Origin: Gammaproteobacteria bacterium
GTDB taxonomy: Bacteria; Pseudomonadota; Gammaproteobacteria; Arenicellales; Poriferihabitantaceae
Direction: 5' to 3'
Assembly (NCBI GenBank): GCA_009842505.1
Contig: VYFG01000124.1
Location: 1-64,000, forward strand
DNA length: 64,000 bases
Shown one piece after another: positions 4,871-57,947 of this stretch (position 1 is its first letter; the number at the start of each line of letters is the position of its first letter). The notes under the pieces were generated by a model that saw only the letters and a list, made by a program, of their open reading frames with translations, had not been told where the DNA came from and did no database searches. The translations under genes were made by a program, and so were the position numbers.

Positions 4871-5626
4871 ATGACTGCCGTCGCCGACTCTCCTCTGTTC
4901 TTCCATGACCCCCTGGCGCCGGACATGCGGGAACTTACGCTGTCGGGCGACGAGGCGGTTCATGCGGGCCAGTCGAGAAGACTCGGCCCGGGCGACGGGA
5001 TCGCCCTGACCAACGGACGCGGCCTGCTGGGGATAGGGACTGTGGAGGAAGTGACCCGGCAACCGCCATCCATGCGGGTATCCATGGAACACTGCAGCCT
5101 TGTCCGTGCGCCGGCAACCGAGGTGGTTCTTGCCACCGCTCTGCCGAAGGGTGATCGGCTCAACACACTGCTGGACATGGCGACCCAGCTGGGAATGCAG
5201 GTATTCCAGCCGCTGGACTGCGTACGCAGCGTGGTGCGCCATCAGCAGAAAATGACCGACCGCTTTCGACGTGTCGTCATGAGCGCGGCGAAACAGTGCC
5301 GCCAGACCAGATTCCCCCGTATCGAGGAGCCGAGGTCCGTGCAGCAGCTCCTGGCGGGGAACGGTCACGATGCCGCCGTGATCTACGGCGAACCGTCAGG
5401 CGATTCGCTTTGTCTGGCCGCTCAGGGCATAATCCGCAAGCCCCCGAGAGTGGTGATCGTCGTCGGCCCCGAGGGCGGGTTCGATGATGGGGAGTTGGAG
5501 CTGCTTCGGAACTGCTCCGCCATGGCGGTGAACTGCGGTTCACTGATACTGCGCACTGAAACCGCCGCGCTGGCACTGCTCACCACTGCCGATCAGTGGC
5601 TGTCCACCCTGCCGGAGACTGCCTGA
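4871..5626 (+). CDS. rsmE: 16S rRNA (uracil-1498-N3)-methyltransferase RsmE
   Basis: 251 residues, normal for RsmE. The enzyme methylates N3 of U1498 in 16S rRNA using S-adenosylmethionine. The N-terminal PUA-like RNA-binding part covers roughly residues 8-75, followed by the SPOUT methyltransferase domain. Recognisable features are the [17 protein letters not shown] helix, the [12 protein letters not shown] segment, the knot loop [15 protein letters not shown] (about 195-209) and the C-terminal [13 protein letters not shown] that closes the SAM pocket. ATG 4871 gives the expected N-terminus. orn follows within a few bases to about 30, depending on its start, so the two are probably cotranscribed. 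Confidence 0.95.
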
Positions 5627-5654
5627 TCCCTTGACAACGGCAACCTGTATACAA

Positions 5655-6212
5655 ATGCCTTCCCAGAACCTAGTATGGATCGATCTTGAGATGACCGGAC
5701 TGTCTCCGGAGACCGACGTCATCATCGAGATTGCCAGCATCGTCACGGATTCGCAACTCAACATCCTTGACGAGGGACCGGTCATCGCGGTGAGCCAGCC
5801 ACTGACCCGTCTGGCACAGATGAACGAGTGGAACACCCGTACACACACCGAAAGCGGCCTGGTCAACCGGGTCAAGGAATCCACCATCAGTACCGCCGAG
5901 GCCGAAAGCCAGACCCTGGAATTCATCCGCGGCCTCGTCCCGGGGAACCATTCACCCCTGTGCGGAAACTCGATCTGCCAGGACAGACGGTTCCTGGCCC
6001 GCCATATGCCCAGGCTGGAAGCCTATCTGCATTACCGTAACCTGGACGTCAGCAGCATCAAGGAACTGGTGAGCCGGTGGCGGCCAGAACTGCTCAACGG
6101 GTTCAGCAAGCGCAATACCCATCGCGCCATGGAAGACATCCGTGAATCCATCGAGGAATTGAAGTACTACCGCAGAACCTTTCTGCGCGCGCCATTGCCT
6201 GCCACCGGCTGA
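5655..6212 (+). CDS. orn: Oligoribonuclease Orn
   Basis: 185 residues from ATG 5655. A TTG at 5631 would add eight residues, but Orn proteins normally begin just before the [12 protein letters not shown] motif. Orn is the DEDDh 3'-5' exonuclease that clears 2-5-nt RNA and the pGpG left by c-di-GMP breakdown. Visible catalytic motifs: WIDLE (Asp/Glu of Exo I), the [16 protein letters not shown] region (Exo II) and a late [20 protein letters not shown] (His and Asp of Exo III). Directly downstream of rsmE on the same strand; no strong ribosome binding site is visible, consistent with translational coupling. Confidence 0.95.
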
Positions 6213-6301
6213 TCCCCGGTCAGGAGCCCTCGTGGCGACGGCTCCCGCCCTGATCAACTACCAACGAAGTACCGTCAGCAGGAATCCGGAGTGTCTCTTG
6301 C

Positions 6302-6331
6302 ATTGAACCGGCATACGGACGACGGTTCAAT
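6302..6331. terminator. Inverted repeat between convergent orn and AOR genes
   Basis: ATTGAACCG (6302-6310) and its perfect complement CGGTTCAAT (6323-6331) form a 9-bp stem with a 12-base loop, exactly where the plus-strand orn unit and the minus-strand oxidoreductase gene converge. No T-run follows on either strand, so it may be a weak bidirectional terminator or an mRNA-end hairpin. Confidence 0.45.
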
Positions 6332-6340
6332 CGTTCCCTG

Positions 6341-8317
6341 TCATCGAAAACCGAGGGCCCGGGCTATTTTCTGCAGCACGCCCTGAGGCGGTGGCGGATC
6401 CTGGGTCGCGGGCGTCTCGTGGGCGGTTGCCGGGGCATCGGCCGTCTCCCGGGATTCCTCCGCGGACGTGCCGGAATCGGGCTCGCCGCGGTCGAACCGG
6501 ATCCCCAGCTCACCGAGCTTGCCCGCTGTCGGCACCCCGCCGGAATCCCAGCCCCGGAGTTCGTAGTACTCGGGAATCAACACCCCGAGTTCCACCACAT
6601 TGCCGTTGCCGAAGCCTCCGGGTACCGGGTCCTTCAGCATCCGCGGCGGCAGCGTATCGTCCGCGGACGTCAGACCTGCGGAGAGGTTGAACAACCGCTC
6701 TAGGTTCCAGATGCGCTCCCCGGTACTGCGCAGCCTCTCTTCATCCCAGTCCCCTGGACAGATCGCACTGATCATCCGGGAAAAGTGCTCGTATCCCCAC
6801 ACCCCGGTGGTGAACAGGCAAAGCCCCGTGGAGTCCACCATGGCAACGAAATCCTGGGAAGTGCGCGCGGCCTCCGCCTTGCCGCCGGTTCCCGGGTCCG
6901 CCATGTCCTGCTCGAAGGTGTCATGCCTGAGATGACAGGCGCCTCGATTGCTGGTGGCGTAGCCAAGCCCCATACCCTGCATGGCGCGCCCGTCGTATCC
7001 CGCGAATTCCTGGCCCTTGGCAACCATGGCGAGTTCCGGATGGCCGTACTTTTCGCAAAGGAGCCTGGAACCCAGACCCAGTTCACGGCCGAAACCTTCC
7101 TGCTTGCCGGTCTTTTCGGACATTACCACCAGGGCCTCGGCACTGCCGAAGCTGAGGTCAATGCCGTCCGTCTGTTCCCTGGTGATGGCGCCGATCTCGT
7201 AAAGCTCCATGGCCGCCGCCAGTGTGACCCCGAATGAGATCGGGTCCATCCCGTGCTCGTTCATCATGAACCCGGCGAACGTCAGTGCATCGAGGTCGTC
7301 CACCCTAACCACGGGGCCAAAGGCGAAGGTGGTCTCGTATTCCAGGCCGCCGGACGTGCCCCAGTATTCCGGTCGGTCGCGGACGCTGAAGTGTTCGGGA
7401 TCGATGCGGGCAAGCCGGCCGCAACCAATGGTGCACCCGAAGCAGGCGGCATTCCGGACGAGGTTGCGATGGCCGTTCCGGTTTTTCACCGTCACCGCCT
7501 CATGATTGATCCTGGAAGCACCATCGAAAGATACCTTGCGGAAGTTCTCTGTCGGCAGTCCCCCGAATTCCTGCATGCTGTCCAGCATCGCGTGGGTGCC
7601 GTAGCGCATCAGTCCCCGGCGGGCACTACTGCGGTTCATCTCCTCGTTGACGGTGCGGACCACTTCCATGAAGGCCTTCGCGTTATCCTCCTGAACGCCC
7701 ACCGTGCCGCGTGCCGCGATTGCCTTGAGGTTCTTGCTGCCCATGACTGCCCCGACACCGGACCTTCCTGCAGCCCGGTGAAGATCGTTCACCACGCATG
7801 CGAAACGCACGCCCTGTTCGCCGGAGACGCCAATGGCAGCAACTTTGGTCAGGGGATCCTGCGTTTTCTTGTGTATCCACTCATCGGCCTGCCAGACCGA
7901 TTTTCCCCAGATCTCATCCGCCGGCAGTACCCGGACATCATCATCCCGGATGTCCAGGTAAACCGGTGCCGGCGAGCGGCCGGTGATGATCAGCAGGTCG
8001 TAGCCCGCATACTTGAGTTCGGCACCGAACTTGCCCCCGGAATTGGATGCCGCGATCGCGCCGGTCAAGGGGCCCTTGGTCACCACGGTATAGCGTCCGC
8101 TGGTGGAGGCCATGGTTCCGGTCAGGGGGCCGGTGGCGAAAATCAGGACGTTGTCCGGTCCCATGGGATCCGCCGCCGGGTCCATTTCCTCCCACAGATA
8201 ACGCGTGGCAAGACCCCGGCTGCCCAGATACTGTTCGGCCCATTCCATGTTCAGTGGTTCGATGGATGTGGTCCCGGCGCTGAGATCGACACGCAGAATG
8301 TTCTTTTGCCAACTCAT
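6341..8317 (-). CDS. Aldehyde:ferredoxin oxidoreductase (tungsten AOR family)
   Basis: 658 residues. AOR-family enzymes oxidise aldehydes to acids (or reduce acids) with a tungsten bis-pterin and a [4Fe-4S] cluster, using ferredoxin or a similar carrier. Cluster ligands are visible as Cys292-x2-Cys295-x3-Cys299 (ACFGCTIGCG) and Cys500 (DSTGLC), spaced much as in the Pyrococcus AOR. N-terminal domain 1 has ATGPLTGT, SGRYTVVTKGPLTGA and GGKFGAELKYAGYD. Strong ribosome binding site (AAGGAGAG) before the ATG. About 45 extra acidic, Pro/Thr-rich residues follow the catalytic part and end in a short basic amphipathic segment (GVLQKIARALGFR), which is unusual. It lies downstream of hrcA and DUF1285. 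No tungsten-transport or ferredoxin gene is adjacent; the substrate is unknown. Confidence 0.92.
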   Translation of the reverse strand: MSWQKNILRVDLSAGTTSIEPLNMEWAEQYLGSRGLATRYLWEEMDPAADPMGPDNVLIFATGPLTGTMASTSGRYTVVTKGPLTGAIAASNSGGKFGAELKYAGYDLLIITGRSPAPVYLDIRDDDVRVLPADEIWGKSVWQADEWIHKKTQDPLTKVAAIGVSGEQGVRFACVVNDLHRAAGRSGVGAVMGSKNLKAIAARGTVGVQEDNAKAFMEVVRTVNEEMNRSSARRGLMRYGTHAMLDSMQEFGGLPTENFRKVSFDGASRINHEAVTVKNRNGHRNLVRNAACFGCTIGCGRLARIDPEHFSVRDRPEYWGTSGGLEYETTFAFGPVVRVDDLDALTFAGFMMNEHGMDPISFGVTLAAAMELYEIGAITREQTDGIDLSFGSAEALVVMSEKTGKQEGFGRELGLGSRLLCEKYGHPELAMVAKGQEFAGYDGRAMQGMGLGYATSNRGACHLRHDTFEQDMADPGTGGKAEAARTSQDFVAMVDSTGLCLFTTGVWGYEHFSRMISAICPGDWDEERLRSTGERIWNLERLFNLSAGLTSADDTLPPRMLKDPVPGGFGNGNVVELGVLIPEYYELRGWDSGGVPTAGKLGELGIRFDRGEPDSGTSAEESRETADAPATAHETPATQDPPPPQGVLQKIARALGFR

Positions 8318-8521
8318 GGGTTCTCTCCTTTAGCGGTATATATAGATGATCTATTGTGGTTTTTCCGGCGGACCTGCCCAGTGCCGGCATCCGGTCCGGG
8401 CCGCCGCCCGGACGGCGTCAGTCCGGCGGATCTCCGCCCACGGGATAATGCGGGATTTTGCCCGGATTTTCCAGATGGGGATTTCACTGTAAGCGCGCGG
8501 AAGGAACCGCCCGGCCCCCGG

Positions 8522-9076
8522 CTACATCAGCGGAAAGAATACACCTCCGCTGCGCACACCGTACACTTCACTGCCGGGCAACTCCCGCTCGGCCATTTCC
8601 GCCAGGTGATAGTAGGCGGAACGCTTCAGGCGGGCCTTCAGGCCGTCCCGGATCAGGACCACGGGGTCCGGCTCGCCGGTCTTCGGGTCGATTCTCGGAT
8701 CCAGGGGATGGTCGCGGTCCAGGGGAATGGTCTCATCCATGTTCGTGCGAAACCAGATGCGGCGGCCGTCATGCCCGCCTTCCACGGACACCTCCACAAC
8801 CTGGAAAGGCGTATCCTCCACACGGATCCGGTAGCCAACCGTCGGGGTGATCAGAAAGAAGTCGCCGTCCCGGCGCGCCAGCACGGTGGAGAACAGCTTG
8901 ACCAGTTCATGGCGCCCGATGACGCCGCCCTCGTGAATCCAGCTGCCGTCGGCCCGGATCTCCAGGTCGAAATCAACCATCCTTTCCGGATGCCAGGTCT
9001 GCACCGGGGGACGGCGAAAGGGCCTGACCTCGTCGAACAGCCGGTCTAGTGTCCCACGGTCAATGCAGTCGGACAT
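8522..9076 (-). CDS. DUF1285 domain protein
   Basis: 184 residues covering a complete DUF1285 protein, a proteobacterial family without a proven function. Recognisable parts: the PPVQTWHPE segment near the start, DFDLEIRADGSWIHEGGVIGR, LVKLFSTVLARRDGDFFLITPTVGYRIRVEDTPF, and RDGLKARLKRSAYYHLAEMA near the end. No signal peptide or membrane segment, so cytosolic. It begins only 22 bases after the hrcA stop on the same strand, suggesting cotranscription; the AOR gene follows after about 200 bases and may have its own promoter. Confidence 0.85.
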   Translation of the reverse strand: MSDCIDRGTLDRLFDEVRPFRRPPVQTWHPERMVDFDLEIRADGSWIHEGGVIGRHELVKLFSTVLARRDGDFFLITPTVGYRIRVEDTPFQVVEVSVEGGHDGRRIWFRTNMDETIPLDRDHPLDPRIDPKTGEPDPVVLIRDGLKARLKRSAYYHLAEMAERELPGSEVYGVRSGGVFFPLM

Positions 9077-50455: not shown

Positions 50456-50657
50456 TCGCCGGCTGCAGGGCGTTCCTGGACCCGACCATTCCCGGCGGGG
50501 CCGCAGGCACGGCAGCGGTCGGGGAATTGCTTTTCCCGGTACTTACCGGTTTTCCGTAACGATCAGCGTGTATTTTGACCTCGTTCAACTGAAACGGTTA
50601 GAATGGCTCGTTTCCGATACATTTCCCAACAGCCCATTCGGAGGGGCAAACCAAGTC

Positions 50658-51629
50658 ATGAAAAGAACCATTCTCTACACTTCGATCGTTGCAGCCGGCC
50701 TGGCTTTTGCCGGAACCACCGCACCATCATTCGCCCAGCAGCAATTCATCTCCATCGGCACCGGGGGTGTCACCGGCGTGTACTATCCCACCGGTGGCGC
50801 GATCTGCCGGCTGGTCAACAAGGACCGCAAGGAACACGGTTTCCGCTGCTCCGCGGAATCCACCGGCGGTTCCATCTATAACATCAACACCATCCGGGCC
50901 GGAGAACTTGAGTTCGGTGTCGCCCAGTCCGACTGGCAGTACCATGCATACCACGGCTCGTCAAAATTCGCCGACCAGGGTGCCTTTGAAAATCTGCGTG
51001 CCGTATTCTCGGTGCATCCCGAGCCGGTTACCGTCATCGCCAGCGATGCGTCAGGCATCAACACGCTGACGGACGCCAAGGGCAAGCGGCTCAACATCGG
51101 CAATCCGGGTTCCGGTACGCGCGGCACCTGGGAAGTAATCGAGGAGGCCCTGGGCTGGGAACGCAGCGATCTCAAGCTGGCCGCGGAAATGAAGTCCGCC
51201 GAAACCGGTCAGGCGGTCTGCGACGGGAAAATCGACGCCTACTTCTGGCTGGTGGGGCACCCGTCCGCGCTTACCCAGGAGTCCCTGGCTACCTGTGATG
51301 CCCACCTTGTCAGCGTGGAAGGCCCTGCCTTCGACAAGCTGGTGGCGGACAATTCGTTCTACCGCAAGACAGCGATTCCCGCGGGCATGTACAACAACGA
51401 AAACGACGTTCCCACCTTCGGGGTCGGCGCCACTTTCGTGACCAGTGCGGATGTTCCCGCGGATGCGGTCTACGTGGTTGTCAAGGCGGTTTTCGACAAT
51501 TTCGACCAGTTCAAGAAACTGCACCCGGCGTTCGCCAACCTGAAGGAGTCGGAGATGATCTCGGATTCCCTCTCCGCACCGTTGCATGACGGCGCAGTGA
51601 AGTACTACAAGGAGCGGGGCTGGATGTAA
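50658..51629 (+). CDS. TAXI-family TRAP transporter solute receptor
   Basis: 323 residues from ATG 50658, preceded by GGAGGGG. A signal peptide ends near residue 26 (SFAQQ). TAXI receptors bind small acids, often glutamate or 2-oxoacids, and pair with fused permeases. The family start [26 protein letters not shown] and [27 protein letters not shown] is clear, followed by [18 protein letters not shown] strong terminator-like hairpin follows immediately, before the permease gene. Substrate unknown; position next to a possible desulfinase suggests an organosulfur acid. Confidence 0.93.
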
Positions 51630-51746: not shown

Positions 51747-54344
51747 ATGGCGGAAGATCAAAAAACCCTGAGCGCCGGCGAACTGGCCGCATCCGTTGAC
51801 ACAGGCGCGCGCAATCCCGTTGGCTGGCAGCGCAACCTGATTCCGGTCATCGCCTTCACCTGGGCGGTATTCCAGCTGTACATCGCTTCCAACCTGCCGT
51901 TCCTGTTCACCGAATGGACCGGCCTCAGCCTGGTGGTGACTAACTCCAACGCCCGGCTGATCCACCTCGCCTTCGCGCTGCTGCTGGCTTCCCTGGCCTT
52001 CCCGCTGTTCAAGTCCAGCCCCCGGCATACCGTGCCCTGGTACGACTGGGTGCTCGCGGCGCTGGGGATCATGGCCTGTCTCTACATCGTGGTGTTCCGC
52101 AACGAGATTGCAGTGCGTGCGGGACTGCCCACCACCGGGGATCTGGTGATGTCGACCATCGGCATGCTGATCCTGGGAATCACGGTCTACCGTTCCCTCG
52201 GCCTTCCCCTGCTGATCGTGGCCTCCGTGTTCGTCCTGTACGTCTTCTTCGGCCACTCGGAGTTCCTCCCGGACGCCATCCGCTGGAAAGGAGCGTCCTA
52301 CGGCAAGGCCCTGTGGCATTACTGGATGCAGGGCGAGGGGGTTTTCGGGGTTGCCCTCGGGGTGTCGGCTTCCCTGATCTTCCTGTTCGTCCTGTTCGGC
52401 TCGATCCTCGAGAAGGCCGGCGCGGGCAACTTCTTCATCAAGATCGCCTTTGCCTTGCTGGGACACCTGCGCGGGGGGCCCGCAAAGGCGGCGGTCGTGG
52501 CGTCGGCTCTCAGCGGCCTGTATTCCGGCTCCTCCATTGCCAATACCGTCACGACGGGCACATTCACCATACCGCTGATGAAGAAAACCGGGTTCACCCC
52601 GGAAAAGGCGGGCGCCGTGGAAGTGGCTTCATCCACCAACGGCCAGCTCACGCCGCCGGTCATGGGCGCCGCCGCGTTCCTGATTTCCGAATTCACCGGC
52701 ATCTCCTATACGGAAATCATTAAGCACGCGCTGGTGCCGGCACTGGTCTCCTACATCGCGCTGGTCTACATCGTGCACCTCGAAGCGGTGAAACTGGATC
52801 TCAAGGGTCTGCGGAAACCGCCTTCGTCACTGACTTTCGCCACCAAGATCATCGGGTTTCTGGGCGGCTTCATCGGCATCGCCCTCCTTGGCCTGTTCGT
52901 CTATTTCGGCATGGGCTGGATCAAGCTGGTGGCCCCGGGTGCGGCATTCGCCGTGGTGGCCGTTTTCTGCTTCCTGCTCTACCTGGTGCTGCTCTGGTTT
53001 GCATCCCGTGAGCCCGACCTGCCGGTGGAATCGCGTCTCGACGAACTGCCCCGGGTGGGCCCGACCGCCATCACCGGGCTCTATTATGTCCTGCCCATCA
53101 TCATCCTGATCTGGTGCATCGTCATCGAGCGCCTCTCTCCAGGATTCTCCGCTTTCTGGGCCGCTATCGCGATGATCGTGGTGACGCTGACTCAGCATCC
53201 CATCAAGGCGGTGATGCGGGGCTCGGAGGATATCGGAAATGCATTCCGCCAGGGGGTGTGCGAGTGGATTGACGGCATGATCGCCGGCTCCCGCAACATG
53301 ATCAGCATCGGGGTAGCCACCGGCGCCGCGGGCATTATCGTCGGCACCATTTCACTGACGGGAGCCCACCAGGTTGTGGGCGAATTCGTCGAGTTCCTGT
53401 CCGGCGGCAGCCTGATCCTGATGCTGATCCTGGTGGCTGTGATGAGCCTGATCCTCGGGATGGGCCTGCCCACCACGGCGAACTACATCGTGGTGTCCTC
53501 CCTGATGGCCCCGGTGATCATCACCCTGGGTGCAGCCAACGGGCTGCTCGTCCCGCTGATCGCGGTACACCTGTTCGTGTTTTACTTCGGCATACTCGCC
53601 GACGACACGCCGCCGGTGGGCCTCGCGGCCTTCGCCGCCGCCGCGATCTCCGGCGGTGACCCCATCCGGACCGGCGTGCAGGGATTTGCCTACGATATCC
53701 GAACGGCCCTGCTGCCGTTCCTGTTCATCTTCAACACCGAGCTGCTGCTCATCGATGTCTCGCCCATGAAGGCGGTTTTCATCTTTGTCGTCGCGGTGAT
53801 CGCAATGATGCTGTTCGCTTCGGCCACTCAGGGGTGGTTCGTCACCCGCAACCGTCTGTGGGAGTCCTTTTTCCTCCTTCTGGTTGCGTTCACCCTGTTT
53901 CGGCCGGGGTTCTGGCTTGACCGTGTTGACCCGCCCTACGAGGACATCGAACCCACCCGGATCTACGAGGTCGTGGAGGCCACTCCCACGGATGGCATCC
54001 TGACAATGGTCGTGGAGGGGCCGGATTTCGACACCGGCGAGAAGGCCAGCACCACGATCCTGGTGCCCACGGGGAACCGGCAGGAGGCTACCAAGCGGCT
54101 CGAGTCCGCGGGCCTGACGGTGGTGGTGGAGGACGGACTTGCCAGAATCGAGGAGCCGTTCCCCGGCACCCCGTATTTCGAGTCCATCGGCAAGTCCTTC
54201 GACTATTACGTGGATGAACCGGTCCGGGTGGCGACCATCCGCAAGGAAAAGGACCGCCTGCCGAAGGAAGTGTTCTATATCCCGGCCCTGCTGGTGCTGG
54301 GACTGGTTTATCTGGTGCAGCGCCGCCGGAAAAACGCAGGATAA
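51747..54344 (+). CDS. TRAP transporter fused permease (DctQM, TAXI type) with DUF3394
   Basis: 865 residues; ATG preceded by GGGAGA. The small and large permease parts are fused: roughly residues 30-180 hold the DctQ-like helices and 190-700 the DctM-like helices, with GNFFIKIAFALLGHLRGGPAKAAVVASALSGLYSGSSIANTVTTGTFTIP and GMGLPTTANYIVVSSLMAPVI as hallmarks. The last 165 residues form a C-terminal DUF3394-like domain, partly hydrophilic (PTDGILTMVVEGPDFDTGEKA), ending in one more helix and a basic tail. Works with the TAXI receptor upstream. Confidence 0.92.
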   Translation: MAEDQKTLSAGELAASVDTGARNPVGWQRNLIPVIAFTWAVFQLYIASNLPFLFTEWTGLSLVVTNSNARLIHLAFALLLASLAFPLFKSSPRHTVPWYDWVLAALGIMACLYIVVFRNEIAVRAGLPTTGDLVMSTIGMLILGITVYRSLGLPLLIVASVFVLYVFFGHSEFLPDAIRWKGASYGKALWHYWMQGEGVFGVALGVSASLIFLFVLFGSILEKAGAGNFFIKIAFALLGHLRGGPAKAAVVASALSGLYSGSSIANTVTTGTFTIPLMKKTGFTPEKAGAVEVASSTNGQLTPPVMGAAAFLISEFTGISYTEIIKHALVPALVSYIALVYIVHLEAVKLDLKGLRKPPSSLTFATKIIGFLGGFIGIALLGLFVYFGMGWIKLVAPGAAFAVVAVFCFLLYLVLLWFASREPDLPVESRLDELPRVGPTAITGLYYVLPIIILIWCIVIERLSPGFSAFWAAIAMIVVTLTQHPIKAVMRGSEDIGNAFRQGVCEWIDGMIAGSRNMISIGVATGAAGIIVGTISLTGAHQVVGEFVEFLSGGSLILMLILVAVMSLILGMGLPTTANYIVVSSLMAPVIITLGAANGLLVPLIAVHLFVFYFGILADDTPPVGLAAFAAAAISGGDPIRTGVQGFAYDIRTALLPFLFIFNTELLLIDVSPMKAVFIFVVAVIAMMLFASATQGWFVTRNRLWESFFLLLVAFTLFRPGFWLDRVDPPYEDIEPTRIYEVVEATPTDGILTMVVEGPDFDTGEKASTTILVPTGNRQEATKRLESAGLTVVVEDGLARIEEPFPGTPYFESIGKSFDYYVDEPVRVATIRKEKDRLPKEVFYIPALLVLGLVYLVQRRRKNAG

Positions 54345-54453: not shown

Positions 54454-55116
54454 TCAGATTCGCGCAGCCGCCATCGTCACCTGGGCAAGCTGTCTTTCGA
54501 TCTCCCTCACGGAAACCGTCACGGCCTGACCGATCAGGTCCATGTTCCTGACCTGCTCGATCCGCTCCGCAACGCCCTTCAGCTCCCGTTCGGAAAGCAG
54601 ATACTTGAACAGGCCGCCTGCGTCCATCAGGCCGACGATCGCGATATCACGGGGGTCGGGGATTTCATCGCTGAACAGGATCGACATGATGCGAAGCTTC
54701 ACCTCCCGTTCGGCCTGTCCGTCCACTACCGGGTAGCGGCGGGACTTGAAAACCCAGAGGAACCGGTCATCCTCCTGGCTCAGTATTCCCCTTTCACACA
54801 ATCGGGCAAGCGCCTTCTCGCGAATTTCTCCGGAAAGGCTCTGGCAATGCTCGACCCAGTACTGGGCATCATGATTTTCCCCCTCTTTCGTGAGGCGTTC
54901 GAGAATCGGATCCAGAAGGTCGTCTCCGGTCGGCTCCGGGTCGATGATGACCAGGGAATCCAGGTCCGTGTCGATCTTGCCTTTCAGTGCAAGATCCATC
55001 AGAACAGCGCCGGACAGCACACATCTCAGGTAATGGTCCGGAGCATGCACAAATCTCCCGTCCTCGTCCTCGAGCAGCAGGAGCATGATCTCTTCGGCAA
55101 AACTCAGCACTGGCAC
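54454..55116 (-). CDS. GOLPH3/VPS74 (GPP34) family protein
   Basis: 220 residues from GTG 55116 (a GTG two codons later, with GAGG before it, is an alternative). The GPP34 fold is recognisable: LSFAEEIMLLLLEDEDGRF (the LTLxEEVLLLxLxDxxG start), VLSGAVLMDLALKGKI, the PEPTGDDLLDPILERL segment, ARLCERGILSQED and RFLWVFKSRRYPVVD in the place of the eukaryotic beta-hairpin. In eukaryotes GOLPH3 binds PI4P and retains glycosyltransferases in the Golgi. Bacterial members are known mainly from actinobacteria and have no settled role. No membrane segment. Convergent with the TRAP permease gene; no evident partner gene. Confidence 0.8.
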   Translation of the reverse strand: MPVLSFAEEIMLLLLEDEDGRFVHAPDHYLRCVLSGAVLMDLALKGKIDTDLDSLVIIDPEPTGDDLLDPILERLTKEGENHDAQYWVEHCQSLSGEIREKALARLCERGILSQEDDRFLWVFKSRRYPVVDGQAEREVKLRIMSILFSDEIPDPRDIAIVGLMDAGGLFKYLLSERELKGVAERIEQVRNMDLIGQAVTVSVREIERQLAQVTMAAARI

Positions 55117-55517: not shown

Positions 55518-57947
55518 TCAGGCCCGCAGCTTTTCACCTCTTGGATCGAACAAGGGCCTTTCCAGCAATGTTGCCCTGGTGGGAATACCAAGCACCCCCA
55601 CCGTGAAATCATCCCCGGGCACGGCATCGTCCCGGTCCACGTAACCGATAGCGACGGAAGTGTTGAACGTGAAGCTGTAGGATCCCGATGTCACGCGGCC
55701 GACATACCTACCGTTGCGGAATATGGCTTCACCGCCCCATGCATCCGCACCCTCCTTGCCGGACCCGGTATCAATCCGGAAGCAGCACATCAGTTGCCTG
55801 GGCGGGACATCCTTGATGGCCATGAAGGCCTCGCGGCCGTGAAACTCCGGCTTTTCCGTTTTTATAAGAAAGTCCATGCGGGATTCAGTGGGCCACCATT
55901 CCGGCGAATACTCCCTGCCCCAACTGCCATAGCCTTTCTCGATCCGCATGGAGCCAAGCGCCCGTGACCCGACAGGACGGGCATCAAGGGGCTCCCCGTG
56001 GGCAAGTATCTTGCGGTAGAGATCGAGCTGGTTCTCCTCTGCCACATACATCTCGTAGCCGAGGTCTCCCGTAAAGGAAACCCGGATGACGATAACCTCG
56101 TAACCGTCCAGGCTAATCACGCGGTTACGCATGAAGCGAAGGTCGTCGTTGCCCCATGAAAGGCCGGTCATGCTTTCCATCAGTGTGCGGGCATTGGGGC
56201 CCGCTACGTTGAACCCGCATATCGCATCGGTCACGCACTCGAAGCTGACCCCGTCCGCGGGCAGATAGCTGTTGAACAGGCGGCGGTGGTAATCCTCGGC
56301 GATGCCCGACCCGATCATGAACAGCTTCTCGTCTTCCAGCCGTGCCACGGTGAAATCCCCGGCCAGCCCGCCCCGCAGGCTCAGCAGGGGCGTCAGGCAG
56401 GTCCGGCCATTCTCCTTCGGCACATGGTTGGCAACGATCCGGTCCAGCCACTGCCTGGCGTTCGGACCCGTAATCATGTACTTGGCGAAATTCGAAGTGT
56501 CCACCACACCGACGGCATTGCGCACGGTAGCGGCCTCCTGACCCATGACGTCGAACCACCGGGGCCGTTCGAATGTGAATTCATCCTCCTGCGGCACACC
56601 CTCCGGCGCGTACCAGTGCGGATGCTCGTAGCCGAAGGAAAATCCGAATACCGCGCCCATGGATTTCTGCAGCTCGTAGACAGGACGTTTCCTGATCGGC
56701 CGGCCTGCGGGACGCTCTTCGTTGGGGAAGTGGATACTGAAACGCGTGCCGTAGGTCTCCATCGCCTTGGCCTTCGCATAGTTCGCGTCCGCCCAGGAGC
56801 CATAGCGGGTCACGTCCCAGGGAAACATGTCAAGCTCCGGCTCCCCCTCCACGATCCACTGTGCCAGGGTCAGACCCAGGCCCGCGCTCTGGCTGAACCC
56901 GGGAACGATACCGTTGCAGCACCAGTAGTTCCTGAGGTCTCGGACGGGGCCGAGCAGCGCGGAGGAATCGGGCGTCCAGATCATGGGACCGTTGATCACC
57001 TGCTTGACGCCCGCCTCGGCCAATACCGGCACCCGGTCACAGGCGCGCATGAAATTCTCGGCGATCCGCTCCAGGTCCTCCGGCAGCAGATCATGGCCGA
57101 AGTCCATGGGCGTACCCTCCTCGGCCCAGAAGCGGCCGTCCTTCTCATAAGCACCCACCAGCAGGCCCTTGCCCTCCTGGCGCATGTAGTATTCCATGTC
57201 GCGGTCCGCCACCGACGGAAGCTCGCGGTCGATGGCCGCAATCTCCGGAATGGTCTCGGTGACCAGGTACTGGTGCTCCATGGTCATGAGAGGCAGGTGG
57301 ACACCGGCCAGGGCGGCCACTTCCCTGCCCCACAGTCCCGCGGCATTGACCACATGTTCCGCATGGATGGTGCCTTTGGGGGTAACCACGTCCCAGGTAT
57401 GGTCGGGCCGCTGGTTGGTTTCCACCACCGGCGTGAACCGAAGGATCTGCGCGCCCAGTTTGCGCGCACCCTGGGCATATGCGTGGGTTACGCCGGAGGG
57501 GTCCACATGTCCGGCCATGGGTTCGTACATGGCGCAGCGCACGTCGTCCAGGTTCAGCAGGGGGTGCAGTTCCAGGGCTTCATCCCTGGAAATCTCGTAG
57601 AATTCGGCATCGAAGGCATGGGCCTTGGATGCCTGTATGCGAAGCTGGTGTTCACGGTCCCGCGAGCAGGCCAGGTAGATGGATCCGGCATGGTGCAATC
57701 CGCAGGACTGCCCGGTCTCCGCCTCCAACTCCTGGTACACGTTCATGGTGTAGTACTGCAGGCGGGAGATATTGTTGTTGTCATGCAGGCCGTGGGTGTT
57801 CGCCGCGGCATGCCAGGTGGATCCGGACGTCAGTTCATCGCGCTCCAGCAATACGACATCGGTCCAGCCGAGTTTCGTCAGGTGGTAAAGGATACTGCAA
57901 CCGGCCAGACCGCCGCCGATGACCACTACCCGGGCATGGGTTTGCAT
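55518..57947 (-). CDS. Dimethylglycine/sarcosine-dehydrogenase-like flavoprotein with aminomethyltransferase domain
   Basis: 809 residues, ribosome binding site GGAG before the ATG. The N-terminal VVVIGGGLAGCSILYHLTKLGW is the FAD-binding site, and His46 in SGSTWHAAA matches the His that covalently holds FAD in dimethylglycine dehydrogenases. Residues about 1-380 form the DAO domain, followed by an FAO middle domain and a C-terminal GcvT-like folate-binding domain (VDTSNFAKYMITGPNARQWLDRI, GDLGYEMYV, SRALGSMRIEKGYGSWGREYSPEWWPTESRMDFLI). Such enzymes demethylate N-methyl amino acids and pass the one-carbon unit to tetrahydrofolate. It lies downstream of an aminotransferase gene on the same strand; the exact amine is unknown. 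Confidence 0.9.
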   Translation of the reverse strand: MQTHARVVVIGGGLAGCSILYHLTKLGWTDVVLLERDELTSGSTWHAAANTHGLHDNNNISRLQYYTMNVYQELEAETGQSCGLHHAGSIYLACSRDREHQLRIQASKAHAFDAEFYEISRDEALELHPLLNLDDVRCAMYEPMAGHVDPSGVTHAYAQGARKLGAQILRFTPVVETNQRPDHTWDVVTPKGTIHAEHVVNAAGLWGREVAALAGVHLPLMTMEHQYLVTETIPEIAAIDRELPSVADRDMEYYMRQEGKGLLVGAYEKDGRFWAEEGTPMDFGHDLLPEDLERIAENFMRACDRVPVLAEAGVKQVINGPMIWTPDSSALLGPVRDLRNYWCCNGIVPGFSQSAGLGLTLAQWIVEGEPELDMFPWDVTRYGSWADANYAKAKAMETYGTRFSIHFPNEERPAGRPIRKRPVYELQKSMGAVFGFSFGYEHPHWYAPEGVPQEDEFTFERPRWFDVMGQEAATVRNAVGVVDTSNFAKYMITGPNARQWLDRIVANHVPKENGRTCLTPLLSLRGGLAGDFTVARLEDEKLFMIGSGIAEDYHRRLFNSYLPADGVSFECVTDAICGFNVAGPNARTLMESMTGLSWGNDDLRFMRNRVISLDGYEVIVIRVSFTGDLGYEMYVAEENQLDLYRKILAHGEPLDARPVGSRALGSMRIEKGYGSWGREYSPEWWPTESRMDFLIKTEKPEFHGREAFMAIKDVPPRQLMCCFRIDTGSGKEGADAWGGEAIFRNGRYVGRVTSGSYSFTFNTSVAIGYVDRDDAVPGDDFTVGVLGIPTRATLLERPLFDPRGEKLRA

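Follow-up and report, generated by a model that had tools for sequence, protein, structure and literature searches.

In eukaryotes, GOLPH3 binds the membrane-near basic tails of Golgi enzymes, according to the accessible text of PMC8421267. GOLPH3-like proteins were said to be undescribed in prokaryotes before PMC12402492, whose accessible portion lists actinomycetes as 129 of the 218 bacterial species with a GPP34 domain, a proportion that agrees with the initial annotation, in which the known bacterial members were described as mainly actinobacterial. The same portion describes the actinobacterial SCO4440 of Streptomyces, a stand-alone GPP34 protein like the one analysed here; its gene adjoins a carboxypeptidase gene, whereas the gene studied here does not. 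Additionally, steroid gene clusters of sponge bacteria are reported from many phyla, with lateral transfer, and show an ERG24-CYP51-cyclase order with SMT nearby (available parts of PMC9531527 and PMC10070321). The main texts of these two papers contain no mention of Golgi, and GPP34 is absent in the one so searched.

The window, that is, the whole analysed stretch of 64,000 nucleotides, carries an intact open reading frame assigned to the GPP34/GOLPH3 family, with a GTG as its listed start (Table 1). The true start is probably at 55110 rather than 55116, giving 218 aa, since relatives begin with "MLSFAEE" and a GAGG lies 5 nt upstream of the second GTG. The protein matched the Pfam family PF05719 (GPP34) with an E-value of 5.3e-47 and 160.9 bits against a curated cut-off of 29.1 bits, covering profile positions 2–200 of 201. 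The Pfam search found no second family in the protein, and NCBIfam returned no family for it. In single-sequence phmmer searches, the only PDB chains matched were Vps74 and GOLPH3 (E 1.2e-8 to 2.6e-6), and GOLPH3 reached E 3e-23 when the protein was searched as an alignment profile. The AlphaFold2 model (pLDDT 84, pTM 0.81) aligned with GOLPH3 over 202 residues with an rmsd of 2.6 and a Z of 21.4. The GOLPH3 and Vps74 rows spanned Z 17.6–21.4, and the first unrelated row stood at 4.9; MarR-like and other weak rows up to that value were discounted as common arrangements. The hairpin stretch can be aligned with GOLPH3 in sequence, yet the model is weakest there (pLDDT below 50 at residues 118–124). 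Both the family and the fold named in the initial annotation are thus borne out, and the gene encodes a true GPP34/GOLPH3-fold protein.

Table 1. Location of the GPP34 genes of the analysed genome, of the genes flanking the window copy and of the comparison features.
Feature	Location	Strand	Length	Remarks
GPP34/GOLPH3-family protein	54454..55116	-	220 aa as listed	ORF, Pfam, phmmer, AlphaFold2 model
DMGDH-type flavoprotein	55518..57947	-		DAO, FAO_M and GCV_T domains; flank of GPP34 gene
TRAP transporter large membrane protein	51747..54344	+		DctM, DUF3394; flank, convergent with GPP34 gene
TAXI-type TRAP substrate-binding protein	50568..51629	+		NMT1_3; flank
ORF ending in CxxCH motif	L057 4697-5149	-	150 aa	Congener G002, interval matching window GPP34
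GPP34-P450 fusion	own C50		675 aa	GPP34 15-217, P450 248-646
GPP34 with hydrophobic tail without Pfam name	own C31			Multihaem cytochrome c gene adjacent
Stand-alone GPP34	own C108
Stand-alone GPP34	own C7
Squalene epoxidase and oxidosqualene cyclase domains (SE-OSC), one frame	L210 (G000:C101) 5492-9007	+	1171 aa

The fold is held in common with GOLPH3 and Vps74 at about 24% sequence identity, and the window protein aligns only from human residue 57, so that it misses the N-terminal extension of eukaryotic GOLPH3, which is presumably used for COPI binding. Furthermore, W81, R90, R171 and R174 of human GOLPH3 (full-length numbering, taken from chain 9qpq_A), which we take to be the residues of the PI4P pocket, align with P26, S35, G96 and R99 of the window protein in the profile alignment. 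On this alignment, the eukaryotic pocket appears mostly lost, with one of these four residues kept. Among 25 genomes searched, an inositol-1-phosphate synthase domain was found neither in the window's own genome nor in 16 other genomes of the same order, and it was present in five of the eight genomes from outside the order. Because the pocket residues are mostly changed and this domain was not found, Golgi-style PI4P binding seems unlikely. A GOLPH3-like phosphoinositide effector that recognises PI4P, whether in the bacterium's own membrane or in a host membrane, would suit the common fold and the retention of R174 as R99; the three other pocket residues and the failure to find a synthase domain in these genomes argue against it and make it improbable, even though inositol could be supplied by import. 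A role of the protein inside an animal host appears still less credible. Eukaryote-like proteins are indeed enriched in sponge symbionts (PMC8163846, PMC9531527, available text), which would fit an export of the protein to act on host membranes, but the predicted protein begins at the first helix of the fold with no signal-like leader, and among its relatives are fusions with bacterial enzymes and with a transporter.

The occurrence of GPP34 in a proteobacterium, which the initial annotation had considered unusual, was rare at the scale of the phylum: matches over the Pfam cut-off were present in 9 of 398 genomes of the Pseudomonadota sample and in 8 of 369 of the class sample, genomes with weaker matches only (5 and 3, respectively) being left out of the counts. 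Within the window's own order, 15 of 109 genomes passed the cut-off, and the window's own genome holds five copies on five contigs, two of them fused. All three samples include the window's own genome.

The flanking DMGDH-type gene has orthologues at 81–87% in all four congeners, and the TRAP large membrane protein has an 82% orthologue in congener G002. The DMGDH-type gene is also part of a large set, with 29 matches in its own genome. No GPP34 was detected in the four congeners, whose genomes are 83–92% complete. In G002, the stretch that separates the corresponding TRAP and DMGDH genes contains an ORF with a CxxCH motif instead, and no degraded GPP34 was found in this gap, where the best profile score was negative; this comparison is confined to G002, as the interval was not visible in the loci taken from the remaining three congeners. 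Given the absence in the congeners and the different gene in G002, the GPP34 gene varies within the genus, having been either acquired in this genome or lost from the congeners and replaced there. This variation would be expected if the gene were accessory and mobile and did little in this genome, an explanation that we regard as unlikely: the frame is intact, five paralogues are kept, and comparison with L188, its closest relative at 62% over 209 aligned residues, shows 30, 20 and 57% of codons differing at codon positions 1, 2 and 3, a pattern that indicates purifying selection.

Among the loci compared, no conserved neighbours of window-type stand-alone GPP34 genes were found, and an operon-based function for the window gene was rejected for this reason. 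In several g18 loci (L051, L052, L053, L055), as in the window, a gene for a TRAP large subunit occurs close to GPP34. This proximity was given no weight, since the GPP34s of the g18 loci belong to a separate branch. The possibility that the window gene reached the MAG by contamination was set aside, as the adjoining DMGDH gene has congener orthologues, and the recurrence of both fused and stand-alone types in other genomes of the order also counts against it. For the short contigs C50 and C108, contamination is set aside less firmly.

The fused copies offer a further line of evidence. In the C50 fusion, the surrounding genes are of squalene/phytoene-synthase, KshA-like Rieske, sterol-methyltransferase and LolA-like types. 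The hydrophobic tail of the C31 fusion looks cytochrome-b-like by eye only. Contigs C31 (right end of L034) and C108 (left end of L036) end in 53 identical bases, beside or in the C31 GPP34 frame; these probably represent an assembly repeat, and the start of the C31 fusion is therefore unsure. Outside the order, GPP34 is joined to an MFS transporter in G125 (by Pfam) and in G420 (by sequence). In all three kinds of fusion, the GPP34 domain sits at the N-terminus.

A quick tree of the GPP34 domain was built from 92 of 164 domain rows: 14 drawn from the L088-L167 fusions, and all of the remaining rows except eight loci omitted as near-copies. The tree contained no eukaryotes and had no bootstrap. 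The window copy and L188 form a pair (support 95) within a branch of 63 rows (support 94), which holds all P450 fusions as one branch (support 97) together with the membrane-domain fusions. MFS fusions, g18 stand-alone copies, and actinobacterial and cyanobacterial rows fall outside it, and several rows of the tree are on long branches. The Streptomyces plasmid copies, which are 24–28% identical to the window copy, lie in another branch. According to this tree, the window protein belongs to a GPP34 branch common to bacteria of several phyla.

When the contigs of named genomes were scanned for GPP34-P450, 477 pattern stretches and 415 relatives were obtained. The best 80 of the 415 were all nearly full-length against the query, with 61–70% identity. 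By the titles of the MAG records, which give ten phyla in all, these 80 comprised Chloroflexota (30), Gemmatimonadota (17), Pseudomonadota (14), Latescibacterota (3), Thermodesulfobacteriota (3, titled Dadabacteria), Nitrospirota (2), Binatota (2), Actinomycetota (2), Verrucomicrobiota (1), Poribacteria (1) and five without a phylum. In a quick tree of 89 fusions, 20 changes of phylum label were counted, compared with a minimum of 11 and a shuffled mean of 53, so that inheritance of the fusion gene is mainly along lineages, with repeated crossings between phyla. Some of these crossings could be due to mis-binned contigs. With support 98, the fusion of the window's own genome groups with one Poribacteria and three Dadabacteria rows. 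L208, L209 and L027 carry another, divergent kind of GPP34-P450; these loci come from two genomes of Palauibacter and from one belonging to the window's family.

Many of the bacteria that share the GPP34 branch of the window copy are sponge-associated MAGs by title. The demosponges Rhopaloeides, Coscinoderma and Ircinia are listed in PMC8163846 (accessible text), and we read the isolate codes RHO, COS and IRC as these genera. A sponge origin is likewise presumed for other MAG series, and the window's own organism may be sponge-dwelling, judging from genomes of the same family.

Genes of sterol type were common around the P450 fusion. Among the best 80 of the 415 loci, 76 had at least one sterol-type neighbour family, a tally that stands without a random-locus control and in which 33 of the 80 loci are shorter than 19.9 kb. 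At these 80 loci, the neighbours included Rieske (59), FAD amine-oxidase type (49), SMT (48), any RND/MMPL transporter (59), ERG4/ERG24 type (11) and LolA-like (10) genes. A tblastn tally with a 50% identity limit gave SMT at 45 loci, Rieske at 62 and neither at 13. AcrB-type transporters alone, at 18 loci, would be little informative; MMPL representatives near the fusions match the Pfam sterol-sensing domain, and one also matches Patched. For instance, about 25 kb of a single contig of G033 encompasses a GPP34-membrane fusion, a multihaem cytochrome, 3bHSD-type, VanA_C-type Rieske and ERG24 genes, a CYP51-type P450, SE-OSC, LolA-like, SMT and MMPL genes, and GPP34-P450.

In the window's own genome, contig C101 carries ERG4_ERG24, p450 and then the SE and SQHop cyclase domains side by side, in the order of the published sponge-bacteria clusters, which the contig resembles. 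The p450 is probably of CYP51 type, as judged from its context and from the AGQHTS motif, which we take to be a CYP51 mark, rather than from a family model. Ten further genomes of the order have frames similar in length to the C101 SE-OSC. Within the order, the SE-OSC frame was present in 10 of 11 carriers of unbroken frames of GPP34-P450 length versus 1 of 98 others (G022); the carriers are related genomes, and the fusion of G055 was counted by frame length only. The carrier without a cyclase is G018, and a twelfth fusion, in G046, carries a stop in a genome that is also without a cyclase. Beyond these, 40 further fusion genomes were reached via 41 of the 80 loci, with G879 and G884 seeming to repeat G020 and G018. 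SE-OSC-length frames were found in 3 of the 40, G879 among them, and any strong cyclase match in 12; the idea that fusion carriers generally synthesise sterols de novo was rejected on the count of these frames. Given so few cyclases, in most carriers the island would use outside sterols or another substrate.

In the fused P450, neither the GTHxCxG haem stretch nor the E and R of EXXR vary across the nine rows of an alignment; a pattern script failed to detect EXXR in 23 of 78 fusions and the haem stretch in 4 of 78. The I-helix sequence is mostly YLGD-x-F/L-S/G and lacks the threonine normally found there, and the chemistry of the enzyme may be unusual for this reason. Among solved structures, CYP51 chains come closest to the fused P450 (E 2e-23), and its own genome also has a separate CYP51-type gene adjoining ERG24. 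GPP34-P450 is thus a second P450 beside the CYP51-type one in this genome, in L096 and in G033, unlike the published steroid clusters. In the literature searched, the available portions of which leave most subscription papers outside their coverage, no description of GPP34-P450 was found.

A direct tie of the window protein to sterols, in which it would serve GPP34-P450 and the surrounding island as a free partner or as a sterol-responsive helper, would be in keeping with the presence of that fusion and of a sterol cluster in the same genome. It would also agree with the additional GPP34 match that 28 of the 40 fusion genomes have in an open frame shorter than 400 aa. We consider this doubtful. 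Unlike the genes of the published sponge-bacteria clusters, the window gene lies outside any steroid cluster; no cyclase was found in genomes of other lineages that carry GPP34 without the P450 fusion (G160, G176, G757, G763 and G769); and 28 of the 40 fusion genomes gave no strong triterpene-cyclase match.

The reading that we prefer, at somewhat below an even chance (about 0.45), is that the window protein acts as a membrane-side adaptor for membrane enzymes, without PI4P as its anchor. It would reside at the cytoplasmic face of the membrane and gather or anchor membrane enzymes there, much as GOLPH3 holds Golgi enzymes by their tails, minus the PI4P anchor; the stand-alone copy would act in trans and the fusions in cis. 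Such a role is suggested by the N-terminal fusion of GPP34 to a P450 within sterol-type islands, to a hydrophobic domain whose gene adjoins that of a multihaem cytochrome, and to an MFS transporter, all membrane-associated partners, together with the GOLPH3/Vps74 fold and the place of the window copy in the branch of the P450 and membrane-domain fusions. Against it, the window gene stands alone in an unconserved neighbourhood, four congeners live without GPP34, and the role of a fused domain need not equal that of the free one.

The window gene is a new member of a known family, whereas the wider branch, with the P450 fusion in sterol-type islands, represents a new form of it. As a broader and more tentative proposal, GPP34 might be an old membrane-adaptor domain that places bacterial membrane enzymes, with the window protein as its trans-acting form. 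The fusion island would then remodel sterols, made in the cell or taken from the host and neighbours, through GPP34-P450, a KshA-like Rieske oxygenase, a flavin oxidase, a sterol methyltransferase and Patched/sterol-sensing-type transporters, and would be exchanged laterally among ten or so phyla, many of its carriers being sponge-associated. The natural fusions point to possible partners of GPP34 in bacteria and make it a testable question whether a Golgi adaptor fold positions membrane enzymes in cells that have no Golgi. Furthermore, GPP34-P450 adds an enzyme that goes unmentioned in the available text of the sterol-cluster papers (PMC9531527, PMC10070321), and it is relevant to the question of which organisms produce or modify sponge sterols, a matter disputed for steroid fossils.
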